Origin: Coriobacteriia bacterium
GTDB lineage: Bacteria > Actinomycetota > Coriobacteriia > Anaerosomatales > Anaerosomataceae
Assembly (NCBI GenBank): GCA_030652115.1
Contig: JAUSBK010000001.1
Coordinates: 244,254 to 308,253, forward strand
Length of the DNA stretch: 64,000 nucleotides
Direction: 5' to 3'
The notes below the pieces were generated by a model. The model saw only the letters and a list, made by a program, of their open reading frames with translations. It did not search any database and was not told where the DNA came from. Positions 19,803 to 25,141 of this stretch are shown in pieces; the stretch's first letter is position 1, and every line of letters starts with the position of its first letter. A program made the translations under genes and the position numbers.

Positions 19803-20927
19803 ATGAGCATCAGGAGACGCATAGCGCGCGGGGCGCGCGTTGTTCTGGTGGTCCTTCTGCTGGGCATCGTCGTCCCCTACACGCACCAGGGCTACGCGGC
19901 GATCGCTGTAACGGTTAACGGCGAGTCGGTCTCGCTTGCACGCGGCGCCACGGTCGAGGACGCCATCGAAAGCTGCGACGGGCTGCGCAACGGGCGAGTC
20001 TGGTCGGTCGCAAGCCATCGTGTGCTCTCCGAGTCGGTGTGCCGCCCCGGCCACGCACAGCTGAACGGCGCCTCGGTGCCACTCTCGGCCGCGGTCCGCA
20101 ACGGCGATCGCATCGAGACCGTCCCCGGCGAGGATGTCGTCGAACCTGTGGTCGAGGAGTTCGTCGAGGTCGAGGTCCCCGCACGCACGATCGGCGCGGG
20201 CTCGGTGCCGAAGGTCGCAGTGGCGGGAACCCCGACCGTGCTCCTGGTGACCAAGGGCGCCGTCTCCGGTGAGACTGTGACGACCGAGACGGTCTCGGTC
20301 GGCGTCCCTGCGGTGGTTCGCATGGTTCCCGAGCCTGGCGCCAACGTGGTCGCACTCACCTTCGACGACGGGCCGTGGCCGGGACAGACCGAGCAGGTGC
20401 TCGCGATCCTGCAGGAGCGCAATGTGCCCGCGACGTTCTTCATGCTCGGCATGCGCGTGGAGCGTGCCCCGGATCTTGCGCGGTCGGTCGTGAACGCAGG
20501 CCATCTCGTGGGTAACCACACGTACTGGCACGTCGACCTCAGCGGGGTGCAGCCCGACGTGGCTCAGTGGGAGATCGAGGCCACCAGCCAGCTCATTCTG
20601 GAGACCACCGGTGTGCGCCCGGCGTGGATCCGCGCGCCCGGCGGCAGGCTTGGCGGGCCGGCCCAGGCGTACATCGCGCAGACGGGGATGCGTCATGCCC
20701 TGTGGACGGTCGACCCGCAGGACTGGAACGAGGGCAAGACGCCCGAGGACCTCGCGTGGAGCGTCATCTCCTCGGCACACCCCGGAGCGGTCATCGTGTT
20801 GCATGACGGCGGCGGCAACCAGGCGACGACCATCGCCGCGCTCCCGCTGATCATCGATGGACTGCGCTACTACGGCTACGAGTTCGTGACCCTCGACGAG
20901 CTTCCGACGGTCAGGTCTGACTGGTAG
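19803..20927 (+). CDS. Secreted polysaccharide deacetylase with DUF348-like and G5 domains
   Basis: A 374-residue protein. A signal peptide/anchor is at about 1-35 (ARVVLVVLLLGIVVPYTHQGYA). A DUF348-like ubiquitin-type module follows (about 36-105), then a G5-like stretch (about 115-180, with VPARTIGAGSVPKVAVAGT). The NodB domain (about 180-370) has VVALTFDDGPWPGQT, LVGNHTYWHVDLS, WIRAPGG and VIVLHDGGG. The TFDD, H-x-x-x-H and His motifs of the metal-dependent de-N-acetylase are present, so it probably deacetylates peptidoglycan or a surface glycan. Its 3' end overlaps the convergent gene by 17 bases. Confidence 0.88.
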   Translation: MSIRRRIARGARVVLVVLLLGIVVPYTHQGYAAIAVTVNGESVSLARGATVEDAIESCDGLRNGRVWSVASHRVLSESVCRPGHAQLNGASVPLSAAVRNGDRIETVPGEDVVEPVVEEFVEVEVPARTIGAGSVPKVAVAGTPTVLLVTKGAVSGETVTTETVSVGVPAVVRMVPEPGANVVALTFDDGPWPGQTEQVLAILQERNVPATFFMLGMRVERAPDLARSVVNAGHLVGNHTYWHVDLSGVQPDVAQWEIEATSQLILETTGVRPAWIRAPGGRLGGPAQAYIAQTGMRHALWTVDPQDWNEGKTPEDLAWSVISSAHPGAVIVLHDGGGNQATTIAALPLIIDGLRYYGYEFVTLDELPTVRSDW

Positions 20928-21519
20928 CGCACCTCACGGTTCGGGTGGGGGTCACCAGGATGTCGACCGGACGGTCGCGGTCTTCGTGGGGGACCTCATC
21001 GAAGACCTGCTCGTCGTAGGCGATGCCGATCGTCGGCGGTGCGCCATCGGGGCCGGCGAACAGCGTGTCGTAGTAGCCTCCTCCAAAGCCGAGCCGGTTC
21101 CCCTCGAGGTCGAACGCGACGCCCGGGACCACGATCACCGAGAGATCGGTAAGCACGGCACCGGGAGTGCCGTCGACAGGCTGCAGCAGGCCATACGGTC
21201 CTTCGGCGAGCACATCGTGGCTGTCGACCCAGTGGATGGTGAGGTCACGACCGCCCGCGACGCGTGGATACGCGATCCGCTTTCCGAGGTCGCGCAGTGC
21301 GTCCTCGAGCACGCTTGGGTCGGCCTCTTCGGGAGAGGCGCCGTACAGCATGACCGAGGCGGCGTCGGCGATTTCGGGCAGCTGAAGTGCGCGCTCGGCG
21401 ATCGCATACGCGTGGGCCACACGCATCTCGGGCAACACGGTTCGCCGCGCCGCCCGCGCCCGCAGTCGGACGACGGTCTTGGCGCGGTCGAGTTCCTCGT
21501 GGCTGGAAGCGAATACCAT
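20911..21519 (-). CDS. 5-formyltetrahydrofolate cyclo-ligase
   Basis: A 202-residue protein. The N-terminal basic helix (RAKTVVRLRARAARRTV) binds phosphate. The signature VVPGVAFDLEGNRLGFGGGYYDTLFA contains the ATP-binding G-x-GGGYYD loop. The enzyme converts 5-formyl-THF to 5,10-methenyl-THF in one-carbon metabolism. It is the last gene of the minus-strand unit that begins with the M-box, 20 bases after the Nramp gene, so it may be co-transcribed. It is an ATP/Mg2+-dependent enzyme but otherwise has no obvious link to metal transport. Confidence 0.9.
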   Translation of the reverse strand: MVFASSHEELDRAKTVVRLRARAARRTVLPEMRVAHAYAIAERALQLPEIADAASVMLYGASPEEADPSVLEDALRDLGKRIAYPRVAGGRDLTIHWVDSHDVLAEGPYGLLQPVDGTPGAVLTDLSVIVVPGVAFDLEGNRLGFGGGYYDTLFAGPDGAPPTIGIAYDEQVFDEVPHEDRDRPVDILVTPTRTVRCATSQT

Positions 21520-21539
21520 ACGCTCAGCATACCCCGCCG

Positions 21540-22790
21540 TCAGCCGATGCCAACGAGTGTCATAACCAGAAGTGCCCCGGTGAGGGTGATAACGACGGCG
21601 ATGGTGGTCCAGGAGAGCACGTTGTTGAGACGCCCGTTGACGTGTCTGCCCATGATCGTCCGGTCGTTGATGATGATCATCATGAACACCAGCAGGAACG
21701 GAAGCAGCACGCCGTTGATCACCTGAGAGACCAGCATGATGGCGATGAGGTCGAGTCCCGGGATGAGGATCACCGCGGCGGCCGCGACGATGACGAAGGT
21801 GTAGAGGGAGTTGAACAGCGGCGCCTCGGCCCAGCTTCGGTCGAGGCCGGACTCCCAGCCGAACGCTTCGCAGATCGCGTAGGACGAGGTGAGCGGCAGC
21901 ACCGCCGCGGCGAGCACCGAGGCGGACAACAGGCCGATGGAGAACAGCAACTCGGCGTAGGGGCCGGCGAGTGGCGCGAGCGCCCGGGCCGCATCCTCGG
22001 CGCCGGTGATCTGGATCCCCGCGGGGTGCAGGACGGTCGCGGTGGTGATGATGATGAAGCAGGCGATCAGGTTGGCTGCGAGCGCGCCCACCATCACGTC
22101 CCAGCGTGCAAGCGACCACTCCTTCACGGTGGTGCCCTTGTCCACGATGTTGCTCTGAAGCAGGAACTGCATCCACGGTGCGATGGTCGTACCGGTCAGG
22201 CCGATGGCGAGCGCGATGAACGCGCGGTCGGGGATTACCGTGGGGACCACGAACGAACGCCCGACCTCGAGCCAGTCCGGTCCGGCGAGGAACGCCGCAA
22301 CGACGTACGCGATGAAGATCGACGACAGCGCGAGCAGCACGTTCTGGACCCGCCGATAGCTCCCGCGCACCACAAGCAGCCACACGACGAGCGCCGCCAC
22401 CGGCACCGAGACGAAGCGCGGCACGCCGAAGATCTCCATGGCCGCGGCGATTCCCGCGAACTCGGCCACGGTGGTGGCCGCTGTGCTCGCGAGCAGCATG
22501 AGCATCGCGCCGAAGGTCAGCCGAACGCCGAAGCGCTCGCGGATGAGTGCGGCGAAGCCCTTGCCGGTGACGGCTCCCATCCGCCCCGCCATCTCCTGCA
22601 CGATCATGAAGCTCGGCGTCATGGCGAGCATCATCCACAGCATCGCGTAGCCGTACTTCGCGCCGGCGACCGAGTACGTGGAGATGCCACCGGCGTCGTT
22701 GCCCGCCGACGCGGCGATGATCCCCGGGCCGATGACGGCCAGGAGCGCGAAGAACGGCAGCCGCCGCTTCTTGTCGGTCGTGGAACTCAC
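21540..22790 (-). CDS. Nramp-family transporter, probable Mg2+ type (NRMT-like)
   Basis: A 416-residue polytopic protein of about 11 helices. Helix 1 reads GPGIIAASAGNDAGGIST; relative to the canonical D-P-G-N this is D-A-G-G, keeping the Asp and losing the Asn. Helix 6 reads GTTIAPWMQFLLQS where Mn/Fe transporters have IMPHN, so the metal-coordinating Met is Ala. Loss of that Met accompanies loss of transition-metal selectivity in the family, and NRMT proteins described from the coriobacterium Eggerthella lenta carry Mg2+. The gene starts at a GTG three bases after the MgtE-like stop, downstream of an M-box, which supports Mg2+ as substrate. Transport specificity is inference. Confidence 0.85.
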   Translation of the reverse strand: MSSTTDKKRRLPFFALLAVIGPGIIAASAGNDAGGISTYSVAGAKYGYAMLWMMLAMTPSFMIVQEMAGRMGAVTGKGFAALIRERFGVRLTFGAMLMLLASTAATTVAEFAGIAAAMEIFGVPRFVSVPVAALVVWLLVVRGSYRRVQNVLLALSSIFIAYVVAAFLAGPDWLEVGRSFVVPTVIPDRAFIALAIGLTGTTIAPWMQFLLQSNIVDKGTTVKEWSLARWDVMVGALAANLIACFIIITTATVLHPAGIQITGAEDAARALAPLAGPYAELLFSIGLLSASVLAAAVLPLTSSYAICEAFGWESGLDRSWAEAPLFNSLYTFVIVAAAAVILIPGLDLIAIMLVSQVINGVLLPFLLVFMMIIINDRTIMGRHVNGRLNNVLSWTTIAVVITLTGALLVMTLVGIG

Positions 22791-22793
22791 GCG

Positions 22794-24671
22794 TTAGCCC
22801 TGAGGCATAAGGTCAGCCGAGACCCACAGGACGCCGGCCAGATAGGCTGCGGCCATGTAGATCGCTGCGGCGGCAATCATGGCCGTCACGGCGAGCGCTG
22901 TTCCCGAAACGCGCTTCCCCTCATCGCTGCGCTTGAGTGCGAGGTGGCCCAGTATCGTGCCTACCAGCACGGATAGCAGCATCGCGGAGAACGTGGCCAC
23001 TCCGAAGGGCATCGCGAAAAGGGCTGCTCCGCCATACCCGAGCCAGATGAACGCATAGGCAAGGGCGGCAGCGACCAGGCCCGTCACCACGCCGATGGAT
23101 GACTCGCGCAGCAGGCGGCGAGCCAGGGATGGACGACTCTCCGAATCGGCACCCTCGATCAACTCAGCGAGGCTTCGCGACGAGATCTCCTCGATCGTGC
23201 GCAACAACACCGGCATCAGCACGAGCGCCCACGGCACGAATCGGACCAGTGCGGTGGTCACCGCCGTGTCCATCGTCTCGGCGAGCCCGGGCCGGACGGT
23301 GTAGTACACGGCGAGGTACAGGAGCAACGCGCCGGTCCATACGAACACCCACGCGGCGCGTCGCACCAGCCACCACCACGTGTTCGCCAGCCCGCCGCGC
23401 TCGCGCGTGGAGCCGGTAGCGATCGCCAGATCCTCGGCGGACTCCTCCTCCATGACATCGAGGGCGTCGTCGACGGTCACGATGCCGAGCAGCTTGCCGG
23501 TCTCGTCCACCACCGGGAGCGCGAGCAGGTCGTACTTGCTCATCGTGTCGGCCACGTCTTCCTGGTCGTCGTCGGGACCGACCATGATGACCTCGCGCTC
23601 CACCAGCCCGGCCACCGGAGTCGTGGGCTCAGACATCACGAGGTCGCGCAGCGAGATCACGCCCTCGAGGCGCCGGTTCTCGTCCACCACGTAGATGTAG
23701 TAGATGCTCTCGTGCTCGGCCGCGCCGGTGCGCAGGTAGTCGATCACCTGCTGGACGGTCATCTCGTCGTTTACGGTGGTGACCTCGGGCGTCATGATGC
23801 CGCCCGCTGTCTTCTCGCGGTAGCCGAGGAGCGAGCGGATGGCGCTCGCCTCCTGCACGCCCATCAGGCGCAGCAGCGCCTCGGCCTTGTCGTACGGCAG
23901 GTCGCCGATGATGTCGGCCGCGTCGTCGGGGTCCATCTCTTCGAGGATGTCGGACGCCCGCTGATCGCCGAGGTCGTCGATGAGGTCTGCCTGGAACTCG
24001 TCCTCGAGCTCGGCGACCGTGAGTGCGGCCTGCACGTTGTCGAGGTGCTCGAACACCCGCGCGCGCTGCGTGGGGCCGAGTTGCTCGAGCACGTCGGCCA
24101 CGTCGGCGGGGTGCAGCTCGTGCAGCCGCTTGTGGGTGACGGAGAGCCGCACGTGGCTGAGGTCGCGGTCGAGCAGGTCCATGTAGTTCCACGCGATGAG
24201 GCTCTCGGGAAGCTCGCGGCCGACGAGTCTGGCCAGTCCCGCCGCCGCATGCTCGACCACCGGATGCAACCCGCGCAGAATGCCGCGGATGCCCACCTCG
24301 GCGCCGAGTAGCCGGAGCTGGCCCTTGCTCTCGGAGAGCTTGAGGTCGTTCACGCGCACGACCTTCATGCCCTGGGTGTCGACGATCTGCTTGTTGAGCA
24401 GGTCGCGCGCGAGCAGCACCTCGTCGGGCTGCAGGTAGCTGAAGCGCAGCGCGGGGCGCTCGGCCGAGAGCTCGACGTGCTCGTCGGTGAGCGCGGCCAC
24501 GTACTTGCGCCATGACAACATGAACGGTGTCTTGGTGGGGCCGAGGAAGGCGAGTGAGGTGACGCGCGGGAACACTTCGCCGGTGGCGATCGCGATGTCG
24601 CTGATCTCGCCGATGACCTCGCCGGCAGCATCCACCACCGGCTTGCCCAGCATCTGGGTCAGGTAGAACAT
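22794..24671 (-). CDS. MgtE-like protein: PRC-barrel, MgtE N domain, two CBS, degenerate membrane domain
   Basis: A 625-residue protein. PRC-barrel-like modules occupy about 1-130 (MLGKPVVDAAGEVIGEISD). The MgtE N superhelix spans about 170-280 (LHPADVADVLEQLGPTQRARV, MDPDDAADIIGDLPYDKAEALL) and two CBS domains about 285-405. Five hydrophobic segments fill about 430-620. The membrane part aligns in layout with MgtE but lacks the GGNxG segment and the pore aspartate: where MgtE has SGP..TTL.D, this has SGTALAVTAM. It may thus sense Mg2+ and regulate the adjacent Nramp rather than conduct ions. It is the first gene behind the M-box. Confidence 0.85.
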   Translation of the reverse strand: MFYLTQMLGKPVVDAAGEVIGEISDIAIATGEVFPRVTSLAFLGPTKTPFMLSWRKYVAALTDEHVELSAERPALRFSYLQPDEVLLARDLLNKQIVDTQGMKVVRVNDLKLSESKGQLRLLGAEVGIRGILRGLHPVVEHAAAGLARLVGRELPESLIAWNYMDLLDRDLSHVRLSVTHKRLHELHPADVADVLEQLGPTQRARVFEHLDNVQAALTVAELEDEFQADLIDDLGDQRASDILEEMDPDDAADIIGDLPYDKAEALLRLMGVQEASAIRSLLGYREKTAGGIMTPEVTTVNDEMTVQQVIDYLRTGAAEHESIYYIYVVDENRRLEGVISLRDLVMSEPTTPVAGLVEREVIMVGPDDDQEDVADTMSKYDLLALPVVDETGKLLGIVTVDDALDVMEEESAEDLAIATGSTRERGGLANTWWWLVRRAAWVFVWTGALLLYLAVYYTVRPGLAETMDTAVTTALVRFVPWALVLMPVLLRTIEEISSRSLAELIEGADSESRPSLARRLLRESSIGVVTGLVAAALAYAFIWLGYGGAALFAMPFGVATFSAMLLSVLVGTILGHLALKRSDEGKRVSGTALAVTAMIAAAAIYMAAAYLAGVLWVSADLMPQG

Positions 24672-24816
24672 ATGGCTCCTTCCCTCCCGGCGGCTATCGC
24701 CGGCAGGTCGATCGTGACGGGGGTCCCGGACCCCGACGCGATCGTCAGGAGCCGGGACCTAGGGACTTGATGGAGTCACCAGGGTCCGTTTCTCTCGGCA
24801 ACAGTGCAGACGACGA

Positions 24817-24849
24817 AAAGAGGCCCCTCATCTGTGAGACGGGGACCTC
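24817..24849 (-). terminator. Riboswitch-controlled terminator in the mgtE-like leader
   Basis: On the minus strand GAGG(T)CCCC pairs with GGGGCCTC across an 11-12 base loop and is followed by TTTT. It lies between the M-box aptamer and the gene, the expected place for an expression platform that stops transcription when Mg2+ is plentiful. Confidence 0.75.
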
Positions 24850-24898
24850 GCTGCGGCGTGCACCGCGTACGACGCGGCATCAGGCTCGCCGCACCGCT

Positions 24899-25099
24899 GC
24901 TCCGTCCCTCGTCTGCGGATTTGGCACTGTCCGACGTAGGGCACACGAGAATCTCGTGCGGCGAGGTTCCGCCTTTGCAGTCCCAGCCACGTTAGCCTTC
25001 CCCTTAAGCCGGGGAGGGCTGTTATACCCATTGGCGTCTCTCGACATTTCCGGGCAGTGGCCTGTGTTCGAACAGGAGCCGCACCGTAACAGATGGAGC
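24899..25099 (-). promoter_or_regulatory. M-box (ykoK) magnesium riboswitch
   Basis: Read on the minus strand, the leader contains GTTACGGTGCGGCTCCTG, CACTGCCCGGAAATGTCGA, GACGCCAATGGGTATAACAG and ACAGTGCCAAATCCGCAGACGA in that order. These match the M-box core blocks of the B. subtilis mgtE leader (GUUAGGUGAGGCUCCU, GCUGCCCAAAAAUGUCGA, GACGCCAAUGGGUCAACAG, ACAGUGCUAAAGCUCUACGA). The outer helix is formed by GCTCCATCTG and CAGA...GGAGC. Mg2+ binding to this aptamer normally favours termination. Of the 621 bases between the HAD gene and the mgtE-like gene, this leader accounts for most; the remainder (24672-24816) is untranslated leader ending in GGGAAGGAG before the start codon. Confidence 0.92.
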
Positions 25100-25141
25100 G
25101 CTCTTGTCGCTGTCAATGCGTCGAGCCGCGACGCACCTGCG

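Follow-up and report, generated by a model that had tools for sequence, protein, structure and literature searches.

A predicted pore-dead MgtE relative encoded with an NRMT-type transporter as a candidate Mg2+-sensing gate in a Coriobacteriia bacterium

The 625-aa protein encoded directly upstream of an NRMT-type Nramp transporter in a Coriobacteriia bacterium is probably, though by no means certainly, a subunit derived from the MgtE channel which has lost its pore and gates the transporter by feedback. The basis of this proposal was observed and consists of the gene order, the match to a Mg2+ riboswitch, the residues of the Mg2+ sensor, the loss of the pore, the genome-wide pairing of both genes and the exchange of partner with Mg2+ ATPases. 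That this protein (hereafter, the regulator) dimerises, that it contacts the NRMT physically and that its effect is inhibitory is what we infer.

Organization of the locus

The window, the whole stretch of DNA that was analysed, comprises 64,000 nt of the Coriobacteriia bacterium assembly GCA_030652115.1 (contig JAUSBK010000001.1, positions 244,254–308,253 of the forward strand). On its minus strand, the ORF of the regulator (22794–24671, 625 aa) and that of the NRMT (21540–22790, 416 aa) are read in the same frame and separated by 3 bases. Upstream of them, at 24898–25100 of the same strand, the M-box (ykoK) Mg2+ riboswitch aptamer was matched over its full length (1–169) by Rfam model RF00380 with 125.9 bits, exceeding the gathering score of 44 bits and preceding a Mg2+ gene, as is expected of a member of this family. 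A pattern scan also located an intrinsic-terminator-like hairpin followed by UUUU at about 24815–24850 of the minus strand (fold −22.3 kcal/mol, z −3.3), which is likely the expression platform of the M-box. The order on the minus strand is therefore M-box, terminator-like hairpin, regulator gene and NRMT gene. Both the spacing of the two genes and their M-box leader had been read from the letters alone and were confirmed, the leader lying just outside the 21540–24671 range of the pair.

The M-box was considered as a general feature of such loci and rejected as such, being present in only some of those tested: 10 loci of the window's class, all belonging to that half of it in which the window falls, and one further locus (L082). 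It was not found in the tested loci of Coriobacteriales, Eggerthellaceae, Chloroflexota or Cryosericota. Directly downstream of the pair, the region 20911–21530 (minus strand) resembles a 5-formyltetrahydrofolate cyclo-ligase gene, as judged from its sequence and synteny. No intact MgtE was found elsewhere in the window's genome, in which one CorA is present.

The NRMT transporter

The 416-aa product of 21540–22790 matched the Nramp family (PF01566, 312.5 bits), and its best solved relative was EleNRMT of Eggerthella lenta (7qia, E 9e-144; PMC8806188), with which it shares 58% identity, the fold (Foldseek TMt 0.96) and the DxxG-TxxA metal site. DxxG lies on TM1 (D32-A-G-G, with D32 and G35) and TxxA on TM6 (T-T-I-A); Met is absent at the metal site and a Trp follows Ala-Pro. 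These are the changes of a Mg2+-type Nramp protein that the sequence-only reading had recognised, and DxxG was conserved in 129 of the 131 linked NRMT homologues. By sequence, the partner of the regulator is accordingly classed as a bona fide NRMT. EleNRMT has been characterised in proteoliposomes as a transporter that is not proton-coupled (PMC8806188), and by analogy the window NRMT would transport Mg2+ without proton coupling. EleNRMT was studied alone; in its Eggerthellaceae relatives in our survey, the partner carries just one TM helix, at the C-terminus. At two loci with pore-dead regulators (L195 and L197) the metal-binding Asp of DxxG is replaced by Gly in the NRMT, and from this substitution the ability of these two proteins to transport seems doubtful.

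Domains and Mg2+ sensor of the regulator

According to the ORF list, profile matches, alignments and a structural model, the regulator (22794–24671, minus strand) is composed of PRC-barrels, an MgtE_N domain, a CBS pair, a plug helix and a degenerate 5-TM MgtE domain. The PRC-barrel region covers about residues 1–175 (24147–24671), was matched by PF05239 in two stretches and is beta-rich in the model. It is followed by MgtE_N (residues 186–286; 23814–24116; PF03448, 95.3 bits), in which D249 and D253 are aligned with D91 and D95 of Thermus thermophilus MgtE, and by the CBS pair (about residues 289–409; 23445–23805; PF00571, 82.8 bits), in which D381, D402, D405 and E371 are aligned with D226, D247, D250 and E216. 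The plug helix occupies about residues 410–430 (23382–23444), its E410, E413 and D414 corresponding in the alignment to E255, E258 and D259, and it is conserved in 34/34 members of the TM-bearing family. The whole protein barely passed the NCBI mgtE model TIGR00400 (score 234.3, cut-off 232.75).

All seven acids of the cytosolic Mg2+ sites (D91, D95, D226, D247, D250, E258 and D259) are kept in the window regulator, and a Leu stands at the position of E59 in the pairwise alignment; mutation of the cytosolic Mg2+-site residues abolishes the Mg2+-dependent closure of MgtE (PMC5882242). Among the 34 TM-bearing relatives, the equivalents of D91, D247, E216, E258 and D259 were found in all, that of D250 was D or E in all and that of D95 was D or E in 31, and the position of D226, Asp in the window regulator, was Asn in 21. 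Judged from these residues, the Mg2+ sensor of the window regulator is intact. The plug-helix acids E258 and D259 were missing or changed in nearly all the relatives without the 5-TM domain and, as a consequence, sensor, plug and membrane domain appear to travel together. The mean column entropy of the soluble domains was 0.8–1.1 bits in the paired relatives, the PRC domains being the most conserved part of the regulator (0.79). The N domain, CBS pair, cytosolic Mg2+ sites, plug helix and 5-TM topology are thus common to the regulator and the T. thermophilus MgtE channel (2zy9; TIGR00400). The regulator differs from this channel in lacking GGN and the pore Asp432, in carrying two additional PRC-barrels and in being paired with an NRMT. 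The sensing architecture with PRC-barrels described from the bare sequence is borne out by the Pfam matches and the conserved Mg2+-site residues.

Loss of the pore

The membrane domain (about residues 440–620; 22812–23355, minus strand) was recognised by alignments, hhalign and the AlphaFold2 model, in which it forms five TM helices. Its Pfam score of 19.8 bits is below the cut-off of 27.6, and it was aligned end to end with the membrane domain of MgtE by hhalign (probability 97.6, E 4.5e-12; control against the NRMT 0.2). The pore Asp432 of T. thermophilus MgtE (2yvx) was aligned with Met598, and GGN with I493-E494-E495 in a family alignment that combined 57 different relatives paired with an NRMT and 21 stand-alone MgtEs. 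None of the 57 paired relatives has retained GGN or the pore Asp, whereas the stand-alone MgtEs had the pore Asp in 21/21 and the N of GGN in 20/21. In addition, both elements were absent in 14/14 relatives from a second actinobacterial class. The loss of GGN and the Met at the pore Asp, both claimed in the sequence-only reading, were hence found again by alignment, and intact pore residues, which would have spoken against it, appeared in none of the 57 homologues. On this evidence from alignment, we regard the pore of the regulator as dead.

Conservation is inverted with respect to MgtE, as in the paired relatives the soluble domains are conserved and the membrane domain is variable: its column entropy was 2.3 in these proteins versus 1.5 in true MgtE, and columns invariant across true MgtE membrane domains vary in them. 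In many paired relatives the site of the old filter is taken by the same new motif, R-x-A-[EQH]-[DE], and therefore the membrane domain does not seem to be simply decaying.

Co-occurrence of the regulator and the NRMT

The 149 genomes of the window's class were surveyed and counted by hand, an NRMT orthologue being defined by more than 45% identity. The regulator was present in 123 and the NRMT in 116; both were present in 115, the regulator alone in eight, the NRMT alone in one, which is a fragmented assembly, and neither in 25. The association had a Fisher p of 2e-20, a value which ignores kinship since the counts are not phylogenetically independent. With both genes in 115 of the 149 genomes, the pair is not due to chance. 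True MgtE was found in 3 of the 116 NRMT genomes versus 16 of the other 33. In a second class (that of genome G330), all 27 genomes with an unfused regulator had an NRMT, and in 18 of them, as we read the contig numbers in the result tables, the two genes were on different contigs. Orthologues of the two genes that never co-occur would have contradicted the sequence-only reading; instead, 115 of the 123 genomes with the regulator have the NRMT, and the pairing holds even when the genes are unlinked.

The eight genomes with the regulator alone were five of family f20, two with an ATPase-linked form and an incomplete one. The five f20 genomes, with a regulator and without any NRMT, count against the gating reading, and so does a distant PRC/MgtE_N/CBS protein of Actinomycetes with no NRMT nearby. 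At the f20 loci (L146, L147, L148 and L151) the regulator is followed by a 5-formyltetrahydrofolate cyclo-ligase-like gene, such as is also located 3' of the window pair, and the NRMT gene that would lie between them is missing; the orphan regulator has a diverged membrane part and has lost the ATP-site Arg. At two loci of Actinomycetes (L089 and L112), the gene of a TM-less PRC/MgtE_N/CBS protein is followed directly by that of a DUF1003 membrane protein (PF06210, 114–121 bits), which may be one more partner of the module.

In several genomes, a long open frame hinted at a fusion of regulator and NRMT; this idea was discarded, each frame having a stop between the genes. A frameshift or true split in one homologue recalls C. 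acetobutylicum, for which a split homologue has been reported.

Graded loss of the membrane part and exchange of partner

The relatives form a graded series from the pore-bearing MgtE, through the pore-dead 5-TM form and a single-TM tail anchor, to proteins without any TM. The membrane part of the Eggerthellaceae regulators is one C-terminal TM helix in 17/17, and therefore no MgtE-type channel is possible there. In two separate lineages the membrane part was lost and the partner changed. In two proteins from separate assemblies, one of Geothermincola (L056, 1317 aa) and another (L049), 65% identical over their length, the module is N-terminal to a Mg2+ P-type ATPase within one polypeptide (TIGR01524, 1099 and 983 bits). 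A third fused copy, which shares 88% identity with L056 across the 566 residues used in the search, belongs to a genome (G418) which also has an ordinary unfused regulator and an NRMT. At two other loci (L059 and L061) a TM-less module is encoded directly downstream of the Mg2+ ATPase gene, in L059 after 24 bases (ATPase TIGR01524, 1151 bits). No NRMT was found in the genomes of L056, L049, L059 and L061. In the tree, the fused form of L056 groups with Coriobacteriia and not with its own class, which suggests horizontal transfer. This MgtA/MgtB-type ATPase, the fused or adjacent partner in these four cases, is outside the window locus and shows only the movement of the module between importers.

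Discussion

According to the mechanism that we propose, at low cytosolic Mg2+ transcription would proceed past the M-box leader and both proteins would be made. The NRMT would admit Mg2+ passively, as its relative EleNRMT is not proton-coupled. At millimolar cytosolic Mg2+, the ion would bind the retained N, CBS and plug sites of the dimeric sensor and close it as in MgtE, and this closure would be relayed to the NRMT by the plug helix together with the pore-less bundle of membrane helices, slowing or locking the transporter. Such a gate would be needed because an uncoupled NRMT gives unregulated Mg2+ entry (PMC8806188). AlphaFold2 was run on an in-frame read-through of the pair (pTM 0.52) and of a TM-less pair (0.54); both halves were well folded and no confident interface was predicted. 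As no interface was resolved, the contact between regulator and NRMT is one that we infer. The idea of an MgtE relative turned sensor and gate for an Nramp protein, which the sequence-only reading contained, thus stands as regards the kept sensor and the lost pore, and AlphaFold2 resolved no complex to go with it.

Shin et al. 2014 (PMC4072509) already describe M-box operons of an 'MgtE fragment' and nrmT, state that most nrmT genes are accompanied by a homologue of the MgtE cytoplasmic part and propose cytoplasmic feedback regulation, so that a pair of this kind, believed undescribed when the sequence was first read, is not new. The window shares with those operons the co-transcription of an MgtE cytoplasmic homologue with an adjacent nrmT (3-base spacing) under an M-box. 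However, the protein described there is small and homologous to the N-terminal cytoplasmic domain only, whereas in that of the window PRC-barrels and an intact plug helix are combined with a full-length, pore-dead, degenerate 5-TM domain. In that paper, Mg2+ rescue was no better when the NrmT of A. capsulatum was co-expressed with its partner, which counts against gating, although an improvement is not to be expected from a negative regulator anyway; the partner in that test is described as homologous to the cytoplasmic domain, and the NrmT behaves as a Mn2+ transporter. The consulted parts of Shin et al. 2014 contain no exchange of partner with Mg2+ ATPases, nor was a description of the ATPase fusion or of a PRC-containing MgtE regulator found among open-access papers. 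Relative to the open-access literature, the membrane domain with its dead pore, the stepwise loss of the anchor, the pairing of unlinked genes and the switch of partner to Mg2+ ATPases appear to be new. The mechanism guessed from the sequence was, all in all, a good one and partly supported, though not new.

Other explanations of the locus were considered. The regulator could still conduct or transport ions, its pore being altered, and the operon would then encode two independent Mg2+ importers. Its 5-TM fold is homologous to that of MgtE, the TIGR00400 cut-off is just passed, and the motif at the old filter does not resemble simple decay. However, the disappearance of GGN and the pore Asp from 57/57 and 14/14 relatives, the variation of columns invariant in true MgtE and the sister lineages which have the same partner and one TM helix or none render this very unlikely. 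The regulator could also serve the stability or supply of importers instead of their gating, as a chaperone, an assembly factor or a Mg2+ buffer. A chaperone role was also offered by Shin et al. 2014 (PMC4072509), and the strongest conservation, that of the soluble PRC domains, agrees with such a function. This function would not account for the retention of the residues acting in the Mg2+-dependent closure of MgtE, nor for plug-helix acids that are present with the membrane domain (34/34) and mostly absent without it, and we consider it unlikely.

Mere co-regulation, in which the regulator would sense Mg2+ for another target, for instance through its PRC-barrels, seems decidedly unlikely: the near-perfect co-occurrence despite missing linkage and the one-polypeptide fusion to a Mg2+ ATPase in genomes without NRMT are against it, even if the genes are unlinked in most G330-class genomes, f20 retains the regulator without NRMT and AlphaFold2 predicted no interface. 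Finally, the two-part uptake system of the sequence-only reading, if taken as obligate, would mean that the NRMT conducts solely with its MgtE-derived partner. Such a requirement would suit the tight operon and the co-occurrence, but it is extremely improbable, as the NrmT of C. acetobutylicum complements without a partner, according to Shin et al. 2014 (PMC4072509), and EleNRMT was characterised in proteoliposomes, no partner of this kind being described (PMC8806188).

Beyond feedback gating of the NRMT by the window regulator, the chances seem about even that PRC/MgtE_N/CBS is a portable Mg2+ gating module for three unrelated folds, namely the MgtE pore, the LeuT-fold NRMT and the Mg2+ P-type ATPase, and that in the NRMT form a dead channel was repurposed as a membrane-embedded allosteric subunit. 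If this holds, which we rate no higher, the module would accompany the NRMT with a pore-dead membrane domain, anchored by one helix or in soluble form, and the ATPase as a fusion or from an adjacent gene.

The paired proteins would offer the sensor and transmission path of MgtE without its pore, that is, sensing separated from conduction by natural mutation, and the fusion of module and ATPase a single-polypeptide system for a direct test of Mg2+ feedback. How Mg2+ flooding through an uncoupled importer is controlled, and what the MgtE-like partner does, is the question left by Shin et al. 2014 (PMC4072509), to which a pore-dead gating subunit may be an answer.
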